Source: a virus. Taken from it: a stretch of DNA of 23,287 nt. A program made the translations under genes and the position numbers. Positions 1,601-14,759 of this stretch are shown one piece after another; position 1 is the first letter of the stretch; the number at the start of each line of letters is the position of its first letter. The notes beneath the pieces were generated by a model. It saw only the letters and a program-made list of their open reading frames with translations, was not told the DNA's origin and ran no database searches. The stretch covers positions 1-23,287 of IMG/VR virus record IMGVR_UViG_3300007541_000224; one strand, given 5' to 3'.

Positions 1601-4600
1601 CTAAGTAAGAGCTACGCCGCGATAGTCTCTTAATGTAGGTGCGTTGTGAACGTTTGGAGAAAGCATATCAATTCTGATTGCGAATCTACGGAAGCCCGAG
1701 AAGTCACCGGCATTGCTCGTATATGTTAACACGCCACTTCCATCTTTGTCTGAATCTGAAACTCTGTACTTGAATTCTCTGTAATCGTTAGTATTCGAGG
1801 TTGATGAGAAAACACCTACACCTTCAAACAACTCTAGCTCAACCCAGTCAACATTATCAAAATTATCGCTATCAAAAGTACTTTGAGGACGAATATAAGT
1901 TTTGATATCCGTTCCGGCCGGTCTATAAGCTGTTAGAATCAAGTGAAGATCTTCAGCGTCTAGGTCTGCGGCGAGCTCAATAGTCTTAGAAATATATTTC
2001 GAAGTAGTAGCCGGAGTGTTAGTAATCTTATATTGATAAGCGAGTAATTTAGATACCTCAATATCAACAAAAGGAGTCGAAGTTACGTTGCCCTGATTCT
2101 CCATATTAATTTTTAGCTCGAATGCTTGAGTTCCGTTAGGATCGTTACTTTTGCTGTACGCTGTAACTCCATTCGTGCTGAAGTTGTTATTATCATTGAA
2201 TTTCATACCAATATCGTAAGTAGCGCTAGGATCAGCTGGCGGAACGAAAGTACCTACAAGAGTCGTGGTAGAAACAGAATCGTTCGATTTCAAAATCATC
2301 GGCTGAACATAACTTAGATTGATGTTGTCGATCGATGCTAAGTTAGCAGTTGACCCACTATCGAATCCTATAATATTAGTCGCTGTTGAGAATGTGCGAC
2401 CGACTTTAGCGGAACTTCTCTCAAGATGCATCTCGAATGGATTACGAAGGTTATAGTAGGACAAGTAGCCTATGACAACAGGTGTACCAGTTCCGCCTGA
2501 AACTAAGAATGAAGTTGGTTTATTTAACGTAATCTGAGTAGAAGAATCTATGCTAGAAACTCTGAAAATATCAAAGCGTGATCCTCCAGCATTCGCTACC
2601 TTAATGTAATCACCCACTGAGTAAGTATCATCAAGCGCGGTGCCGGTAAGTGTAGTGCTTCCTAGTGCAACGCCGACTGTAGCTGAAGTTCCACCTGATA
2701 GTGCTTTCTCTTGGTAGACAAGTTCACCAGGATTAAATCTTCCTGTGATGTTATTAACAGTCAAGAATTCACAATCATTGTGTGTTAATGTTACGCTACC
2801 AGTACTCTGATTAAAGTTATGACGATATAAAGTAAACTTCATATCTTCATCCTGATATGACTTCCAAGCACTATTATTAGTTGAGCTGAATAGTACCCCA
2901 TCTCCCCAGTCCTGTACAATAGCGAAGCCCTGAGTGGCTCCAGGAGTGAGGTCTACACCACCGATCTTAGAAGTAAATACTAAGTAGTTTGGATCAGAAG
3001 CATCTGGTTGTAATACAACCGCGTACTCTTTTTCGACGTCAAGTCTTACAGGAGCTTCAAATACGAAGGTTGTCGCTACTGAAGCATCGTCAGTCGCTGA
3101 ACTTGTAAGAGCAGAAGGAAGTTTGTGTACAGTAGAGAAAGGAACAATCTGGTTAGAAGGATAGCCGTTCACTACTTCACGAATCTGTAAAGAGATACCA
3201 TTAGTTGTACTTACACGCTTGAAGTATACATCAACTTGTGATAAGAAAACTGAATTACTTCCAGCACCCATACCTTTCTTGACGAAGAATGTTTGAGCAA
3301 TAGGATCTCGTCCTACTGGTCTGCGAACAACGTTTCTCGTTGTAGTTGTTGCTGCAACATCGAAAGTAGGAGCTCGAGTAGAAGTTGTTAGTGCTGTACG
3401 TTCTACTGAGAAGTTGTAAGCTCTATACGTTACGAAACCTTTAGATGTAGATGCACTATCAATCGTGCTGTAAACATCGACGTCAGCAATTTCAAGTACT
3501 CTGTCGCCGACAAAGAAAGTTTCGGCAGGAATTCTAAACACTGCTCTGAGCACACCGTTAGCGTCAGTTGATACTTCGTCTCCTAACTCACCATTACGTT
3601 CGACGTCACCGACTGTATTTGATTCTGTTCCAGGAATGACATGAGCATTAATATCTACACCGTCAAAGAAGAACCAGTGTCTCTGATTAGGACGTAATCC
3701 TGACATGTAGATCTTAATATCTCTAGAAGCCATGAAAGGCTGGAATTGGAAGTTAGAGATAAAGTCACCTACGAACTGTTGTGTGGTAGCTGTTTCTCCT
3801 ACAGTTAGAGTTCTTGTAGTCGTTGTCTGTAAGAAGTTCTGACCGGCACCAGGGAAGTTACCGAATCTTCTAGCAAACTGATTCGGAATGAATCCATCAA
3901 TAAAATCTTCAGTAACTGTGGTATCAGTTAATGGCAAGAATTCTTGTAAGTTGTCAATAAACTCTTGGAAAGGAGTCGCGAGATCGATGTCGATAGTAAC
4001 AGGGTTAGTAGTGGTGTCGTACGTCGCGTCGTACGGAGGCGCGATCGCGCCGTCGCCTACGTATCTGTAGAAGTTACTTACGCAGTTACGGAATCCAGAA
4101 GCATAGGGTTGGCTGATGATTGAAACATTTGAGTTTCTACCTAAAGTAGCTACCTTAGCATCATTGATAGACGGGAATACAGAAGCGCTCGTTCCTGTCT
4201 TATATTTAAGATCGATTGGAAATGTCTTTACTGCAGGCGTCAGGATTCTTTGATTGAACGCAATAGCGGCATTGAACTCTGGACTTTCAATATTTGCAAG
4301 AGTAAGATCATTAAATGGATCTACAACGAAACCGTTCTTAAATCTTGTTAAACCGTTTTCATCTAAGATAGTAAGGTTTTGTGTTTCAGATTCTAGTTGA
4401 CTTAAAGAAATGTAGTAAGCCATATTGTCGATCTTCTTCTCAAGCGCATGAAGATCTTTCATTGTATAATTCTTAACGCCTGTTGATTTTGCTTTAACAG
4501 CGTATTCACGCTTGCGCTGAGCATCAGCCTGTTTAGCTGATAGAGCTGGGAATCCAGGAACAGTAACATGCGCGATTGCTAGCTGATCTGGTCCTACTCT

Positions 4601-8722: not shown

Positions 8723-10594
8723 CTAAGCTCCTACTCTTATCTTTCTACGAGGATATGTTTGTCCGGAGGTTGGTCTACGACCGAATGATGGGCCGCGAAC
8801 ACTATTAATATATTTACCTGTTCCTAAACGAATGGAATAAGGAATGTATATTCGATCTGGACGTGTGCCGAAAAGATCACTCAAGTCTGTGCTACCGTTT
8901 TGAAAGCTACCGTTTGTAACACGAAATACATCTGATGATGAATAGAGTCTTGTTGACGCAAAATTAGTAGGTGAAGGAGTGCTTGAAAAATCTATTAGTC
9001 CTTCACTATCTAATGGTTGTTGTGAATTCTTTTGTATAATTTCTCTAAGTTGCGTGATAGAAGGATACTCGCCTCGCTTAATGAAAAAGTCGCAAATCAT
9101 AATGCTAGCGGTTCCTGCAGATTGAGGGCCTGCACAAGATGTTCCACTGAAGTAACCCCACGTTCCATCTAGTAGCGAAACGCTCGGATAAGCAGTCCAG
9201 GTATACGCGCCTGTTCCAGCAAAATCAATGACCGGTCCTCTATTACTGTAATCATCTAACAGCGGGTTGATTGTGCTTTGTTGACATGCTGCAACAACAT
9301 AATCATATGAGCCGCCGTAATCATAGGGTCTTAGAGGATAAACGACCGAGCTAGCTTGAGATGAAGGTGTGGTTGCACTAGCAAAAACATATTTTCCGTC
9401 AATGTCTACAGTTATAGAAACATAGCTTGTGCTAGTATCAAGAGATAGCTTAGTGTTGTATCGAGGATCAGCAAGTTTAACTTTAACGTCACCGTTGTTT
9501 CCTGCACTCTTGAAGTGATATATCCCACCAGCACTATTATAGTTGTTCATGATAGTGTCCATAGTGGTATATCGTGCCGAATTTCCCCAAGTAAGCATCC
9601 ACTTGTCTGTACTGTCTGCAGGGTCGTTAATTACTCTAGGAACGAGCAAGTTGTTAGTGAACGGCGTAAGATCACTTCCCCAACCACCGCCCGGTCTCGT
9701 AATCGTCGTTAAATTTCCATCTGCATCATACGCATCGATCTGATTAACTCTTTCTACCCAAATAGCACCGGTGAATTCTACACCGACGAATCCCCATGCT
9801 CCAGTAACGATTGTGGCGTTACGACGACCTGTTGCTGGATTTACTGGCTTGTTATTGTGGAAATTTAAAACACCGTTATATGCAGCAGAGACACCGTTTG
9901 ATAGATAAACTACTCTGAGACTTGAAACTTTACTCCACCCGCAATATTTTCCTCCAGCTGCACTGAGTACTCCAATCGCATGGGCATCAAAAAATTCTGT
10001 GTTGTTTGTAATTTGATCATTGTCAACGAGAGCGTTATCGTAGTCAGTCCAGTTTGTTTTTACGAATCGACTTGCCGAATCATCTTCGTTTAAAAAGTCC
10101 GGGTGATTCACATAAGAATCATAAGTATTAGAAGGAATGCCTGCTTCAATAGCAACTATATCGACGTACTCGCCTGCGTAGTTTTGAGTTATTGTCGAGG
10201 ACATTTCAGCATCTTCGCCACCAGTCGTAAAAAATCCTACTGGTCCTGTATTTCCAGATATGTCAACACCGCCAGTAAACCAGAAGTTAGTACCAGAATA
10301 ATCTGCGCCATTTACACCCGAAGGATTTAATCTTGTCTTAAGTGTTGTACTTCGAGAATATTCTGGAGTTACCGGATAAGCGGTAGGTGTTACTCTTAGT
10401 TCTTCTTCAACGTCAATAACAAGGTCGCTAAGCTTGAGTGACTCAACTTCTGCTTCTGTAAGCTTCATTGAAATAATACTGTCGAAGTTATTCAAGTTAC
10501 TGTGCACCTGCATTCCTGCCGCGGGGCCAGTAGTCAAGAAAGCTGTTTCGTCAGTTCCTGGTTGAAGAATGACAGTGTATATTTTTTTGTCCAT
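8723..10594 (-). CDS. Subtilase-fold (S8-like) protein with I9-type prodomain, catalytic triad apparently altered
   Basis: This 623-residue protein has the architecture of secreted subtilases but no signal peptide. Residues 5-68 match an I9 inhibitor/prodomain (YTVILQPG, then MKLTEAEVESLKLSDLVIDVEEELRV). In the peptidase part, VDIVAIEAGI (144-153) aligns with the V-x-V-x-V-I-D-S-G-I strand, with Glu150 where the catalytic Asp belongs. DAHAIGVLSAAGG (203-215) aligns best with the region after the catalytic His, putting Phe202 at that position; alternatively His205 is the active His. SAGNNG (363-368) gives the oxyanion Asn366, and GTSCAGPQSAG (484-494) gives the nucleophile Ser486. YSNRGPVIDFAG (449-460) is also typical. 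It lies four bases after the cupredoxin fibre gene and before gp8, so it is probably a virion protein, either an atypical protease or a pseudoenzyme. The fold call is firm; activity is doubtful. Confidence 0.8.
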   Translation of the reverse strand: MDKKIYTVILQPGTDETAFLTTGPAAGMQVHSNLNNFDSIISMKLTEAEVESLKLSDLVIDVEEELRVTPTAYPVTPEYSRSTTLKTRLNPSGVNGADYSGTNFWFTGGVDISGNTGPVGFFTTGGEDAEMSSTITQNYAGEYVDIVAIEAGIPSNTYDSYVNHPDFLNEDDSASRFVKTNWTDYDNALVDNDQITNNTEFFDAHAIGVLSAAGGKYCGWSKVSSLRVVYLSNGVSAAYNGVLNFHNNKPVNPATGRRNATIVTGAWGFVGVEFTGAIWVERVNQIDAYDADGNLTTITRPGGGWGSDLTPFTNNLLVPRVINDPADSTDKWMLTWGNSARYTTMDTIMNNYNSAGGIYHFKSAGNNGDVKVKLADPRYNTKLSLDTSTSYVSITVDIDGKYVFASATTPSSQASSVVYPLRPYDYGGSYDYVVAACQQSTINPLLDDYSNRGPVIDFAGTGAYTWTAYPSVSLLDGTWGYFSGTSCAGPQSAGTASIMICDFFIKRGEYPSITQLREIIQKNSQQPLDSEGLIDFSSTPSPTNFASTRLYSSSDVFRVTNGSFQNGSTDLSDLFGTRPDRIYIPYSIRLGTGKYINSVRGPSFGRRPTSGQTYPRRKIRVGA

Positions 10595-10597
10595 GCA

Positions 10598-12160
10598 TTA
10601 AGTCTCTAGTTTTAATGCTGTGAGCGTTACTGTGACTGTTCCTGTGCTTCCTGAGTTGTTAGTGATAGATACCGGAATTGTTGTTTCTCCATCATCAACG
10701 TATCCATAAACAGCAGGTGTTACTTTAAACTCTGTGTTAGCTGAAGTTGCTACGAACTCAGCGATGATGCCGGCTCCTTCAGGAGGATCATCACCTTGGT
10801 TGCGGCTAGCGTCAGCGGTACGTGAAGCTGTATCTGAATAGATTCGAATCCACGCTTCCTTGTCAGTTTGTACTGTGTATAGAGCGTAAGATTTACCTAG
10901 ATTAGCATAAGCTACGTTTCCTGTAGCACCATCTGCGATACTTGCGGTTGTTTCGGCTTCTGTAACTCGAGACAGTGATACACCACCTCCGCCACCACCA
11001 GCTGCAGCTTCTATAGTGAGTGTTCCATTCATACCACCATGGTTTTGACACTGATACGCGTAGTCTCCAGATATTGATGCTGGAACTTTCCAATACAATG
11101 TACCTGATGTCTTGCCTTGAGCACTAGTGTCAGTCGTTACTGTTCCGTCAGTCGCTACGTGAACGAGGCCTGTGCTGTAATTCGAACCACCGCTTGTTTG
11201 AATTAAGAACGGGTGGCTTGAAACCGCTGAAAGATCGAAAGCGATAGTTGTTCCGGCTTTCGCATAAACTGTAGGATTGTCAGTTGTTCCGTATTGATCA
11301 AAGCGATATGCAGAAGTACCGTTTGCTGTTACGACAAGTGTTGTTGCTGCTTGTCTTCCAATATCGTGTACGTCTAAATCAGCCGTATCAATTTCGGTAA
11401 GAGCAGCAAATGTAGTTGAACCGCTGCCTGCGCTAGGATCAACCCAATCGTAGTCAGAACCGGTCCAACTTAAAACTTGACCTGTAGTAGCAGTTGATGT
11501 GTTTAAGTGCGTGTCGACGTTACCATCAGTATATCCAGATCCTCCGCCGACAGAAACCCAAGCGTAATCTGAACCATTCCAACTTAGAACTTCACTCGCA
11601 CTAGCAGCAGACGTGTTGAGGTGTGTATCGACGTCTCCGTCACTATAACTACTAGGTGAAGCTGCAGCGATAGTGATAGTATCACTCGAATCATTAGTGG
11701 TTATAGTAATATTCGAACCGGCTACGAGTGTAAGTGTATCTGAAGTATTGTCAGCAACAACGTCGTTCTGGCCAGAAACTACTATTGTGCTAAAAGTATT
11801 TGAAGAAGAACCGCCGCCACCGCCGCCCGCAACATCAGTAAGCTTTGCGAGTTTAACCCACTCGGTTGAATTCGAATAGTAAAGATATCCAGTGTCTTGC
11901 GCGTATCCTAAACAACCCTTGTAAGTTGAAGCGTTTATTGCTAGTAGCGCAGATTCTGTAGCATAATAGAAAGAGATTTTATGTGGTTTATTAGGAAAAT
12001 CAAAGTTACCGCTTCCATCAAAAAGCGTAGTAACTGAGTTACCTCCTAGTGCGAAGTATAACTCATTAAAGTTATCGTTTGTTTTATCGAATGCATTACG
12101 TAACGGATCACCGGATCCGTCGTTCGCTGATGCTCCGATGTTAATTGTTTGCTTGGCCAT
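10598..12160 (-). CDS. Fibre-like structural protein containing a cupredoxin (blue-copper) domain
   Basis: This 520-residue protein is modular. Residues 1-40 (MAKQTINIGASANDGSGDPL, then AFDKTNDNFNELY) are a common N-terminal module of marine T4-like structural proteins. A Gly6-Ser3 linker (112-120) leads to a beta-rich shaft with two 38-residue tandem repeats (172-209, 210-247). Residues about 274-384 form a plastocyanin/amicyanin-like cupredoxin: TVYAKAGTTIAFDL, SHPFLIQT with His316, then YQCQNHGGMNGTLTI with Cys371, His374 and Met377. These are the four type-1 copper ligands, and the C-x2-H-x2-M spacing matches amicyanin. A second Gly6 linker (388-393) follows. The C-terminal 127 residues resemble a conserved beta domain of marine phage virion proteins. 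Only one other Cys (83) is present. The gene lies between the gp7-like gene and the subtilase-like gene. Copper binding is inferred from ligands only. Confidence 0.85.
   Translation of the reverse strand: MAKQTINIGASANDGSGDPLRNAFDKTNDNFNELYFALGGNSVTTLFDGSGNFDFPNKPHKISFYYATESALLAINASTYKGCLGYAQDTGYLYYSNSTEWVKLAKLTDVAGGGGGGSSSNTFSTIVVSGQNDVVADNTSDTLTLVAGSNITITTNDSSDTITIAAASPSSYSDGDVDTHLNTSAASASEVLSWNGSDYAWVSVGGGSGYTDGNVDTHLNTSTATTGQVLSWTGSDYDWVDPSAGSGSTTFAALTEIDTADLDVHDIGRQAATTLVVTANGTSAYRFDQYGTTDNPTVYAKAGTTIAFDLSAVSSHPFLIQTSGGSNYSTGLVHVATDGTVTTDTSAQGKTSGTLYWKVPASISGDYAYQCQNHGGMNGTLTIEAAAGGGGGGVSLSRVTEAETTASIADGATGNVAYANLGKSYALYTVQTDKEAWIRIYSDTASRTADASRNQGDDPPEGAGIIAEFVATSANTEFKVTPAVYGYVDDGETTIPVSITNNSGSTGTVTVTLTALKLET
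11009..11341 (-). other. Cupredoxin domain within the fibre-like protein
   Basis: This segment encodes residues 274-384. The copper ligands predicted are His316, Cys371, His374 and Met377; the Cys codon is complementary to 11048-11050. The strand before His316 (AGTTIAFDLSAVSSHPF) follows the cupredoxin pattern of a hydrophobic strand leading to the first His. The ligand loop has the short amicyanin-type spacing. Confidence 0.8.
11420..11647 (-). repeat. Two tandem 114-bp units coding 38-residue fibre repeats
   Basis: Residues 172-209 and 210-247 share Y(S/T)DG(D/N)VDTHLNTS, then VLSW(N/T)GSDYxWV, in the same register with identical unit length. The DNA units at 11534-11647 and 11420-11533 are diverged but alignable. 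Each probably adds one element to a trimeric fibre shaft. Confidence 0.8.
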
Positions 12161-12188: not shown

Positions 12189-12196
12189 TATTTATT
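12189..12196 (-). promoter_or_regulatory. Possible late-promoter variant (AATAAATA) before the cupredoxin fibre gene
   Basis: The minus strand reads AATAAATA within TAATAAATATTA. It overlaps the stop codon of the gp7-like gene and lies about 29 bases before the fibre gene start. It differs by one base from the T4 late consensus. A GAGGAA ribosome site sits between it and the ATG. Confidence 0.3.
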
Positions 12197-14759
12197 ATGG
12201 TGTAGGTTCATGATCCGCTGTAACGAACGTCGAGTCAGCAGTAAAGTTAGTAACTGACGCTTCTAGTAAGTTAACATCTGCAAGATCTAGTGGTGAACCT
12301 CTTCCGTCATCATTAAAGAATCTAACAAATCGAGCTTTTGTTTCTTGTGGTATCTCGACTTTGTAAATAAAATCGCCGAACATTTTTGTTCCGGCTAAGT
12401 GTACATTTTGTTTTAATAACTTTTCGTATTCGCCTTTCGAAAGTGTTGATCTAATCTGATAAGAGTATTCTTGATAGAAATCACTATCTTGTATTTTTTG
12501 TCCGGACGCGTAGTAAGTGTACTGATTAACGTACCTCCATATACTAGAATATGTTTCAAACCAAGGTTGTGTTCTTAAGCTTGGGGCTATGATAGTATTC
12601 CATCGAGTTACTGAAGCCTCTAGAACATCACTAGCACCAACCGCAAGCTTTAAGAATTGGAGAGAATCACTTGATTGAATAGATCCGTTCATATTGATGT
12701 CGCCATAAGCGAATCCGTCTGAAGCTGTAGTGGTCAACCAAGCATCTAGTTCAAGAGGCGATGCGGTTAGTCCTACTGCTACACGCGATACTTGTGTTAC
12801 AAACTCTTGTGTCGGTAAAATAGGCGTTTCGTCATCATAAGGATCTAACTCAAATCCGTTTAAATGAGATGAATAACTGGCCCAATATCCACTAGTCCTA
12901 CCCTGCGTGAGCGATCTTATTGTTCCTGATGCTCGAGGGTCGCTACTCGAATTTACAAGAGTTGCTTCTAGACCATCTACATAACCGAATCCTGAATTGT
13001 AGATAGCTACTGTTTGAATTCGGCCTATTGCAAACTCTGTATCAGAGTCGATAGTTGCGTTATCGCCAAAAGGTCTACTGTTGTAATCGACATCAACACC
13101 GATCACACCGAATTCATCACCATTAGATCTTCGAATATCATAATCACCACTAAACCCGTAGTAATCAAATGGAGTTACGCTCAAGAATCCGAATTCAGTA
13201 TTGACTTCGGTAATGATACCTTCTATGTTAGAAGTTACTTCTACAATCGTTTCACCTACAGAAAATACACCTGCTGCACCAGGATCAGTCAAGCGAATAA
13301 GTTGATTTCGTCGATCTAGAGGTTTAATCACATCATCTTCTGCGACTGCCCAAACTTGGTTTTGATATAAAGAACCTGGAGAAACATTGTCGAATCTCCC
13401 TATTCTACCGATAGTGATGTCTTGAATGTCAAAAGCCTGATTTAGAGGAGTCAACAGATTTACAGGAGAAGCGGGTCCCGACATCGGTGCTGCGGTCTCA
13501 TAGTCAGCAGCGTTGATACTTACACCTAAGAAAGGAGCAACAAGATCTGTGATTAAGCTAGCAGTCGAAGTGTTCGTAAGAGAGCCGACTATAACATCAG
13601 TAGTACTGCCGGTGTCAGGATATAAAAGACCCGGAGAAGATTCGTTTTTAGGTACCACACCTACTGGGAAGAATGTGATGTTGATGTCGTTTCCATCTTC
13701 ATCGAATCGATCTAATGTACTAATTGGAGTACCGAATGAAAAAGCTTGTCCTGAATTCATTCTAACTCCGAGAGAAGTGACGCTTTGGCCGATAACTATA
13801 CCTTGATTTCCAAGTCCATCTTCAAGTCTTTCATAGACTACGAAGTCTTGACTTGGATTTTCTAAAATGAGAGTCTGATTTGAAACGAGCAATCGAGTAT
13901 TTTCAACGCTGTAACCATATCCTCCATTTACTAATGTATAGTTAATTTGTCCTGATAGTTGATTTGATATCGAAGTAACGATAGCTTTACCACCTTCGCC
14001 GTATTCAGACACGACATCAAGAACATCACCAACTCTGTTTCCAGCAGTAACTGTTCCATCATCGTCAACTAAGAACTCGCTTAACGATCCGTTCACTACG
14101 CCGAATTCTACTACTTCACCATTAATGTTCGTAAAGATGTTATCGTATCTTTCAAAGTTTCCTTGAACAGAATCAATATAAACGATCGGTGTTTTAGTTC
14201 CGTTTAATAACATCCAGTTAACACGAGATACTGCAGCTTTTGCTCCGGATGCAGAACCAGTAATGTTCTTTGAAATCAGATCTTTATAACTGTATTGCTT
14301 CTCTGTCTTAGAAAGAAAAACATTTGTGTTTGGAAATAATTGTAAATAAGTTCCTTGTCTCCAAATCGAGTTAGATATTTTAAGCATCTTCTCAGCAGGA
14401 TATACGATTTCAACATCGAACTCTTGATAAAATATGGCAAAGAATAATTCGATACCAGCAGGTGTACCTTTACGTCTATACAAGTCAAGAATGTTCTTGA
14501 CAATGAATGTAACAATGTTTTCTTTAAGTGGAAGATCTGCTAAGAATTTTTTCTTGAAAAAAATTACCATTCTAGACAAAGTAGTATCGATATCACGATA
14601 CTCGAACATGCGTCTAGACACATAGGTCGACTGATTCGACTGAGTCTCTAAGAACGTGTAATAATCTTTTACAAGTTGAACGAGCTCAGCTCCTTCTTCC
14701 TTATAGATGCCAGGAAACTGTTGCTCGATGAATATCGATATATTCTTTTCTATTTCCAT
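12195..14759 (-). CDS. Baseplate wedge protein in the gp7 position, with a dockerin-like loop
   Basis: This 854-residue protein lies directly after gp6, where T4 encodes gp7 (about 1032 residues), the wedge subunit that starts wedge assembly. The helical N-terminus (FIEQQFPGIYKEEGAELVQL, then VKDYYTFLETQ, then LDLYRRKGTPAGIELFFAIFY at about 91-111) is typical of the equivalent protein in marine T4-like phages. Identity with gp7 rests on position and size rather than clear similarity. The central part (about 200-670) is beta-rich with repeated short Gly/Asp strands (NGGYGYSVEN, NSGFGYVDG). Residues 687-698 (DINMNGSIQSSD) fit the dockerin/EF-hand calcium loop, followed by an amphipathic helix. 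The C-terminal part (about 715-815) is aromatic and mixed helical. It starts 17 bases after the gp6 stop. Confidence 0.7.
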   Translation of the reverse strand: MEIEKNISIFIEQQFPGIYKEEGAELVQLVKDYYTFLETQSNQSTYVSRRMFEYRDIDTTLSRMVIFFKKKFLADLPLKENIVTFIVKNILDLYRRKGTPAGIELFFAIFYQEFDVEIVYPAEKMLKISNSIWRQGTYLQLFPNTNVFLSKTEKQYSYKDLISKNITGSASGAKAAVSRVNWMLLNGTKTPIVYIDSVQGNFERYDNIFTNINGEVVEFGVVNGSLSEFLVDDDGTVTAGNRVGDVLDVVSEYGEGGKAIVTSISNQLSGQINYTLVNGGYGYSVENTRLLVSNQTLILENPSQDFVVYERLEDGLGNQGIVIGQSVTSLGVRMNSGQAFSFGTPISTLDRFDEDGNDINITFFPVGVVPKNESSPGLLYPDTGSTTDVIVGSLTNTSTASLITDLVAPFLGVSINAADYETAAPMSGPASPVNLLTPLNQAFDIQDITIGRIGRFDNVSPGSLYQNQVWAVAEDDVIKPLDRRNQLIRLTDPGAAGVFSVGETIVEVTSNIEGIITEVNTEFGFLSVTPFDYYGFSGDYDIRRSNGDEFGVIGVDVDYNSRPFGDNATIDSDTEFAIGRIQTVAIYNSGFGYVDGLEATLVNSSSDPRASGTIRSLTQGRTSGYWASYSSHLNGFELDPYDDETPILPTQEFVTQVSRVAVGLTASPLELDAWLTTTASDGFAYGDINMNGSIQSSDSLQFLKLAVGASDVLEASVTRWNTIIAPSLRTQPWFETYSSIWRYVNQYTYYASGQKIQDSDFYQEYSYQIRSTLSKGEYEKLLKQNVHLAGTKMFGDFIYKVEIPQETKARFVRFFNDDGRGSPLDLADVNLLEASVTNFTADSTFVTADHEPTP
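12645..12701 (-). other. Dockerin type I-like calcium loop and helix
   Basis: Residues 687-705 of the gp7-position protein read GD then INMNGSIQSSDSLQFLKL. Asp687, Asn689, Asn691, Ser693 (or the backbone at this point) and Asp698 fall on the D-x-N-x-(D/N)-G-x-(I/V)-x-x-x-D pattern of dockerin repeats. The helix with the L-x-x-L-K spacing also follows the family. Only one clear copy is present; type I dockerins normally have two. Confidence 0.6.

Follow-up and report, generated by a model that had tools for sequence, protein, structure and literature searches.

We report a cupredoxin domain with a predicted intact set of type-1 copper ligands in a baseplate protein of an aquatic T4-like phage. 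The analyzed DNA, hereafter called the window, is the whole stretch of 23,287 bp from the IMG/VR virus record IMGVR_UViG_3300007541_000224. The domain is encoded on the minus strand at positions 11009–11341, which correspond exactly to residues 274–384 of a 520-aa ORF (10598–12160, minus strand); the plus strand of this region is stop-rich. The four residues singled out by the initial annotation (H316, C371, H374, and M377) are present, and the ligand loop has the spacing C-x2-H-x2-M. Taken as a whole, the explanation that we propose, a metal-clamped cupredoxin on the baseplate connector that is displayed for surface contact, is probable.

The baseplate connector and its genomic context

Judging from sequence matches, the carrier is a gp10/gp9-type baseplate wedge/tail-fibre connector of a T4-like phage. 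Residues 1–43 (12032–12160, minus strand, as are the other features of this ORF) constitute a T4 gp10-like N-terminal motif: the T4 gp9/gp10 N-terminal family PF07880 scores 23.9 bits against a cut-off of 25 (E = 4.9e-5), and residues 3–43 match the T4 gp10 N-terminus in a phmmer search of PDB (7.9e-5; structures 2fl8 and 5hx2). Residues 110–384, cupredoxin domain included, match at 8.3e-42 the family phrog_677, labeled "baseplate wedge tail fiber protein connector". The C-terminal beta domain (residues 394–520; 10601–10981) matches phrog_15343 at 1.1e-22. In the full-length model, which is of low confidence (pLDDT 57) and resolves separate blocks only, residues 394–520 form a separate beta-rich block and residues 386–399 have pLDDT <50.

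The initial annotation described a fibre-like protein in which the domain is bracketed by two Gly6 linkers. Two fibre-type repeats, DG[DN]VDTHLNTS..., are indeed present at residues 174–240 (11441–11641), but the carrier is a baseplate protein of the gp10/gp9 type and not an unknown fibre. Similarly, one Gly6 linker (residues 388–393; 10982–10999) directly follows the domain, whereas the other Gly6 run (residues 112–117; 11810–11827) lies about 156 residues before it, with the repeats in between.

The same-strand neighbours of the carrier are baseplate genes of the gp8, gp6, gp25, gp5, gp53, and tube-cap types, and therefore the locus represents a T4-like baseplate cluster. Also on this strand are genes for a DUF4815 protein and for a fibre that bears an S74 chaperone, and all genes of the window are virion-type. 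Together with the gp10-like N-terminus and the gp9 body, the baseplate neighbours agree with the original suggestion that the domain is a displayed module of a virion protein. The baseplate wedge ORF at 12195–14759 contains a dockerin/EF-hand-like stretch, DINMNGSIQSSD, at 12666–12701 (minus strand; residues 687–698).

Three bases downstream of the carrier gene, an S8 (subtilisin)-like protein is encoded at 8723–10594 (minus strand). It is homologous over the full length to an ORF of locus L003 (7e-290), which in turn passes Pfam Peptidase_S8 (1e-7), and contains GTSCAGP at residue 484. Where the catalytic Asp would probably lie, the sequence is VAIEAG, and hence the protease activity of this protein is doubtful.

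The closest relatives of the window gp6 are from Sinorhizobium phages phiN3 and phiM12 (41%), and psbA was not found in 15 contigs with close relatives of the domain, although these are mostly fragments and the absence is weak. Based on these two observations, the host of the window phage is probably not a cyanobacterium.

Fold of the domain

Residues 274–384, a stretch of 111 residues, are confidently predicted to form a cupredoxin fold. The AlphaFold model of the domain, built with 64 relatives in the alignment, has pLDDT 94.7 and pTM 0.88, and the Greek-key beta-sandwich of 7–8 strands that is typical of cupredoxins is seen with AlphaFold, Foldseek, and VIA alike. The leading Foldseek matches in PDB are all cupredoxin folds, namely, amicyanin, nitrite reductase, rusticyanin, laccase, and plastocyanin (E-values from 1e-4 to 1e-3); amicyanin is at the top, and probability 1.00 with E about 1e-4 was obtained for amicyanin, rusticyanin, plastocyanin, and copper nitrite reductase. 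VIA-align yields Z up to 11.3, with 2.4 Å over 107 residues, for domains of copper nitrite reductases and multicopper oxidases. Independently of these comparisons, a sequence profile of 25 relatives searched against PDB retrieves nitrite reductase (8.7e-6), rusticyanin (1.6e-5), plastocyanin (2.2e-4), and amicyanin (1.7e-3), and in the profile alignment the His, Cys, His, and Met of the domain align with the rusticyanin ligands. Thus, the cupredoxin assignment with an intact type-1 ligand set, made originally from the letters of the DNA, is borne out by prediction, structural comparison, and profile search.

In the model numbering, H47 precedes strand 49–53, C102 ends strand 96–102, and M108 precedes strand 109–115. 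The Cys is therefore predicted at the end of the penultimate strand, in the His...Cys...His order of type-1 sites. The proximity of His316 to the Cys-His-Met loop, expected by the initial annotation, would be consistent with this strand topology: the His stands before a strand and the loop lies between the last two strands.

At the level of family models, the domain scores below thresholds: 16.5–16.8 bits with Pfam Copper-bind (PF00127; gathering cut-off 21.2) and 16.6 bits with the plastocyanin model TIGR02656 (equivalog cut-off 87.85). For the amicyanin model TIGR02657, the window domain has no match at E 0.1, and the best relative scores 9.8e-5.

Conservation of the ligand residues

Two data sets constitute the evidence for ligand conservation, an alignment of 25 relatives and a survey of 312 distinct domains gathered with a profile whose ligand columns were blinded (X). 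Because the relatives were retrieved with DNA patterns, some of which include the CxxH or HPF stretch, the degree of conservation may be a little too high. The members of alignment A3 had been selected for the motif beforehand, and its invariant columns were left out as evidence.

The 25 relatives are 31–74% identical to the window domain and share eight invariant columns, all four ligands included. In the blinded survey, the first His ligand position, His316 of the HPF motif before a beta strand (11213–11215), is His in 311 of 312 relatives; the thiolate position Cys371 at the end of the penultimate strand (11048–11050) is Cys in 310 (entropy 0.15–0.23 bits); the second His position, His374 (11039–11041), is His in 310; and the axial position Met377 (11030–11032) is Met in 308 and Gln in two. 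In terms of ligand sets, there are 308 HCHM, two HCHQ, one HSSV, and one ANFS, so that homologues very seldom lose the residues on which the initial annotation was built. At 60% redundancy, HCHM is kept in 60 of 64 domains. Among 64 relatives with less than 60% mutual identity, a ranking of the 102 columns by conservation has the ligands at places 2, 5, 6, and 8, whereas the chance of four random columns all falling in the top eight is about 1.6e-5. A chance motif is ruled out by the retention of all four ligands (308/312) and by these ranks.

The positions between Cys, His, and Met are variable, with entropy of about 2.0–2.7 bits vs. 0.15–0.28 bits at the ligands; the second His is followed by S, G, A, or P and preceded by N, F, Y, or L. 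In both domains that have lost the ligands (HSSV and ANFS), Cys, the second His, and Met are gone together. Where the Cys-His pair is retained, Gln is the only residue that replaces the axial Met, and stellacyanin naturally uses Gln as its axial ligand. The axial Gln and the joint loss are what a metal site would predict.

More distant repeats occur in gp10-like neighbours of cyanophage gp9, some of them with CHYHTGQ and some without the ligand loop; as far as can be read from these repeats, phage tails do contain a cupredoxin-like relative that is metal-free. The gp10-like protein of locus L101 (1688–4675; T4-GC 399 type) contains cupredoxin-like repeats, one with an axial Gln and one without ligands. 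In cyanophage gp10-like proteins (L101), a YHYH domain (PF14240, 1.6e-17) is joined to the cupredoxin-like repeats.

Distribution and modular reuse

Depending on the query, tblastn finds the domain in 278–352 public phage records, mostly annotated as gp9. Nearly all of them are T4-like phages of Synechococcus and Prochlorococcus; the remainder are few and include Pelagibacter phages, marine phages, and one actinobacterial phage. In IMG/VR, 253, 378, and 376 relatives were found for three queries, and these sets may overlap, while BFVD contains 54 predicted viral proteins with the domain at E ≤ 0.001. The hundreds of public phage and IMG/VR relatives rule out that the domain is unique to the window phage. 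The rarity implied by the initial annotation thus did not hold, as about 350 public phage records carry the domain, never labeled as copper-related.

In cells the domain is rare: among the genomes sampled, it was found in 3 of 190 from the class to which L255 (Hyphomicrobiales) belongs and in 9 of 198 from the phylum of L253 (Bacteroidetes). The L255 protein (3116–4408), 430 aa long and from Hyphomicrobiales, contains the cupredoxin twice, and the matching genomes (3/190) are small, 1.4 Mb. A search for carriage of the domain on plasmids gave no match.

The domain occupies the end of gp9 in S-SM1 and other phages, and it is found in tail spikes (P-SSM2) and in a roughly 1,840-aa protein of MED4-213. 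It also ends virion S8-type proteins at 73 loci, many of which were retrieved by a single scan whose query was such a fusion, and adjoins an S8-type gene at 31 loci. Both counts were taken from the GTSxAxP motif, because an iterated S8 profile leaked into the cupredoxin domain. S8 subtilisin-like virion proteins fused to the domain or situated beside it include those at 8723–10594 (minus strand) of the window, L332 1–1830, L082 4321–6327, and L500 956–2791. Two further carriers are a Bacteroidetes collagen-like surface protein (L253, 2948–5971) and an actinobacterial phage protein encoded beside collagen-repeat genes (L499, 2041–3411). Since the domain is reused on gp9, S8 proteases, spikes, and bacterial surface proteins, its carriers indicate that it is a mobile display module and not a photosynthetic plastocyanin.

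Comparison with known systems

The closest counterpart of the window protein is cyanophage gp9 (T4-GC 398/phrog_677; S-SM1 gp9, ADO97247), which likewise has a gp10-like N-terminus, a fibre-like middle, and the HPF...CxxHxxM domain. However, S-SM1 gp9 stops at the domain, which spans about residues 310–408, whereas the window protein adds a Gly6 linker and the C-terminal domain, and the window domain is only about 30–43% identical to the cyanophage gp9 copies. The domain is in gp9 in both S-SM1 and Syn9, for which virion proteomes exist (PMC3037559). The family is already in databases as gp9. In the open-access literature other than bioRxiv preprints, we found neither a mention of the copper-type site that its sequences suggest nor any phage tail protein described as containing a cupredoxin.

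Among free cupredoxins, amicyanin shares the fold and the C-x2-H-x2-M loop, but it is a free periplasmic electron carrier, whereas the window domain has Pro after the first His and no match to the family model. An HP-type first His is also found in oxidase type-1 sites. Rusticyanin, the best free cupredoxin by profile and with aligned ligands, differs in having a longer ligand loop and in being a free soluble carrier. The cupredoxin domains of copper nitrite reductases and multicopper oxidases are structurally the best by Z, but the window protein has a single cupredoxin domain without ligands of type-2/3 centres.

Plastocyanin has the loop C-x2-H-x4-M, unlike the C-x2-H-x2-M of the window. 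The phage PetE plastocyanin (T4-GC 225) is a phage-encoded cupredoxin as well, but it is not a virion protein, and its gene is described as a separate one in a metabolic cassette (PMC3037559). A free photosynthesis plastocyanin was rejected given the plastocyanin model score, the loop spacing, and the baseplate-like N-terminus, and it is further opposed by the Sinorhizobium phage affinity of gp6 and by the lack of psbA in the 15 related contigs; hence the original distinction between the domain and phage petE stands. At locus L081 (5788–6294; phage S-SCSM2R, XQU50115.1), a protein annotated as PetE is a short gp9-like structural protein with the domain, and its gene adjoins an S8 peptidase gene.

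Metal sites have been proposed for phage fibres. The HxH sites of T4 gp37 and alterophages resemble the present case as metal sites in fibre proteins, but they bind iron, are octahedral, are formed in a fibre trimer, and involve no cupredoxin fold (PMC11705849).

Possible roles of the putative metal site

Metal binding by the domain is highly probable, and copper is somewhat favored over zinc as the metal. We suggest that the domain serves as a displayed binding or spacer module and holds a soft metal, with copper as the likeliest candidate. The metal would link the strand of His316 with the Cys-His-Met loop and stiffen the small beta-sandwich in the extracellular environment, and the variable loops of the domain may contact the host surface or neighbouring fibres. 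Copper loading is a real difficulty, given that virions assemble and their proteins fold in the cytosol, which offers little free copper. The metal could be taken up after cytosolic folding, as Cu(I) or by zinc exchange, or from the surroundings after release or lysis. The ligand-poor relatives in cyanophage gp10-like proteins and the existence of cupredoxin-like domains without metal also count against the metal clamp.

These relatives, along with the two ligand-less domains of the blinded survey, are what a metal-free structural cupredoxin would lead one to expect, with the four residues kept for packing and no metal in vivo. Nevertheless, an otherwise variable family retains exactly the metal ligands and loses them together rather than singly, which makes this explanation unlikely. 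If the site does hold copper, Cu(II)/Cu(I) cycling on the virion, e.g., as a trigger or an electron carrier at the host surface, would be compatible with a full type-1 ligand set that includes an axial Met, such as electron-transfer cupredoxins have. On the other hand, there is no conserved docking patch, because the residues flanking the second His vary; the module sits in unrelated carriers without a redox partner nearby; and the window holds only virion-type genes. Redox use of the site is accordingly rated as improbable, and structural display or adhesion seems likelier than electron transfer.

Copper capture, or mimicry by docking to host copper-handling surface proteins, would be a copper version of the Ferrojan idea, proposed for the iron-binding HxH sites of phage tail fibres (PMC11705849), and several copies per virion are plausible. 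Yet no host partner is apparent, there are no copper genes nearby, and bacterial surface proteins carry the module too; we regard this role as very unlikely.

A metal-clamped display module would have consequences beyond the window. That many T4-like marine phages have working blue-copper sites on baseplates and virion proteases, with copper-dependent infectivity, is a tentative and somewhat doubtful extrapolation from sequence. If the blue-copper reading is true, the virions would be copper proteins, and a particle would carry about 18 sites for gp9, provided that the T4 stoichiometry holds. Should copper occupy the site, a phage group that ranks among the most abundant of the sea would have a copper centre in the tail, phage infectivity would be tied to trace copper, virion metals beyond the iron sites of fibres would become open to a direct test, and genuine phage plastocyanins could be told from structural look-alikes when photosynthesis genes are surveyed. 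Surveys of phage plastocyanins may be counting gp9-like proteins such as XQU50115.1.
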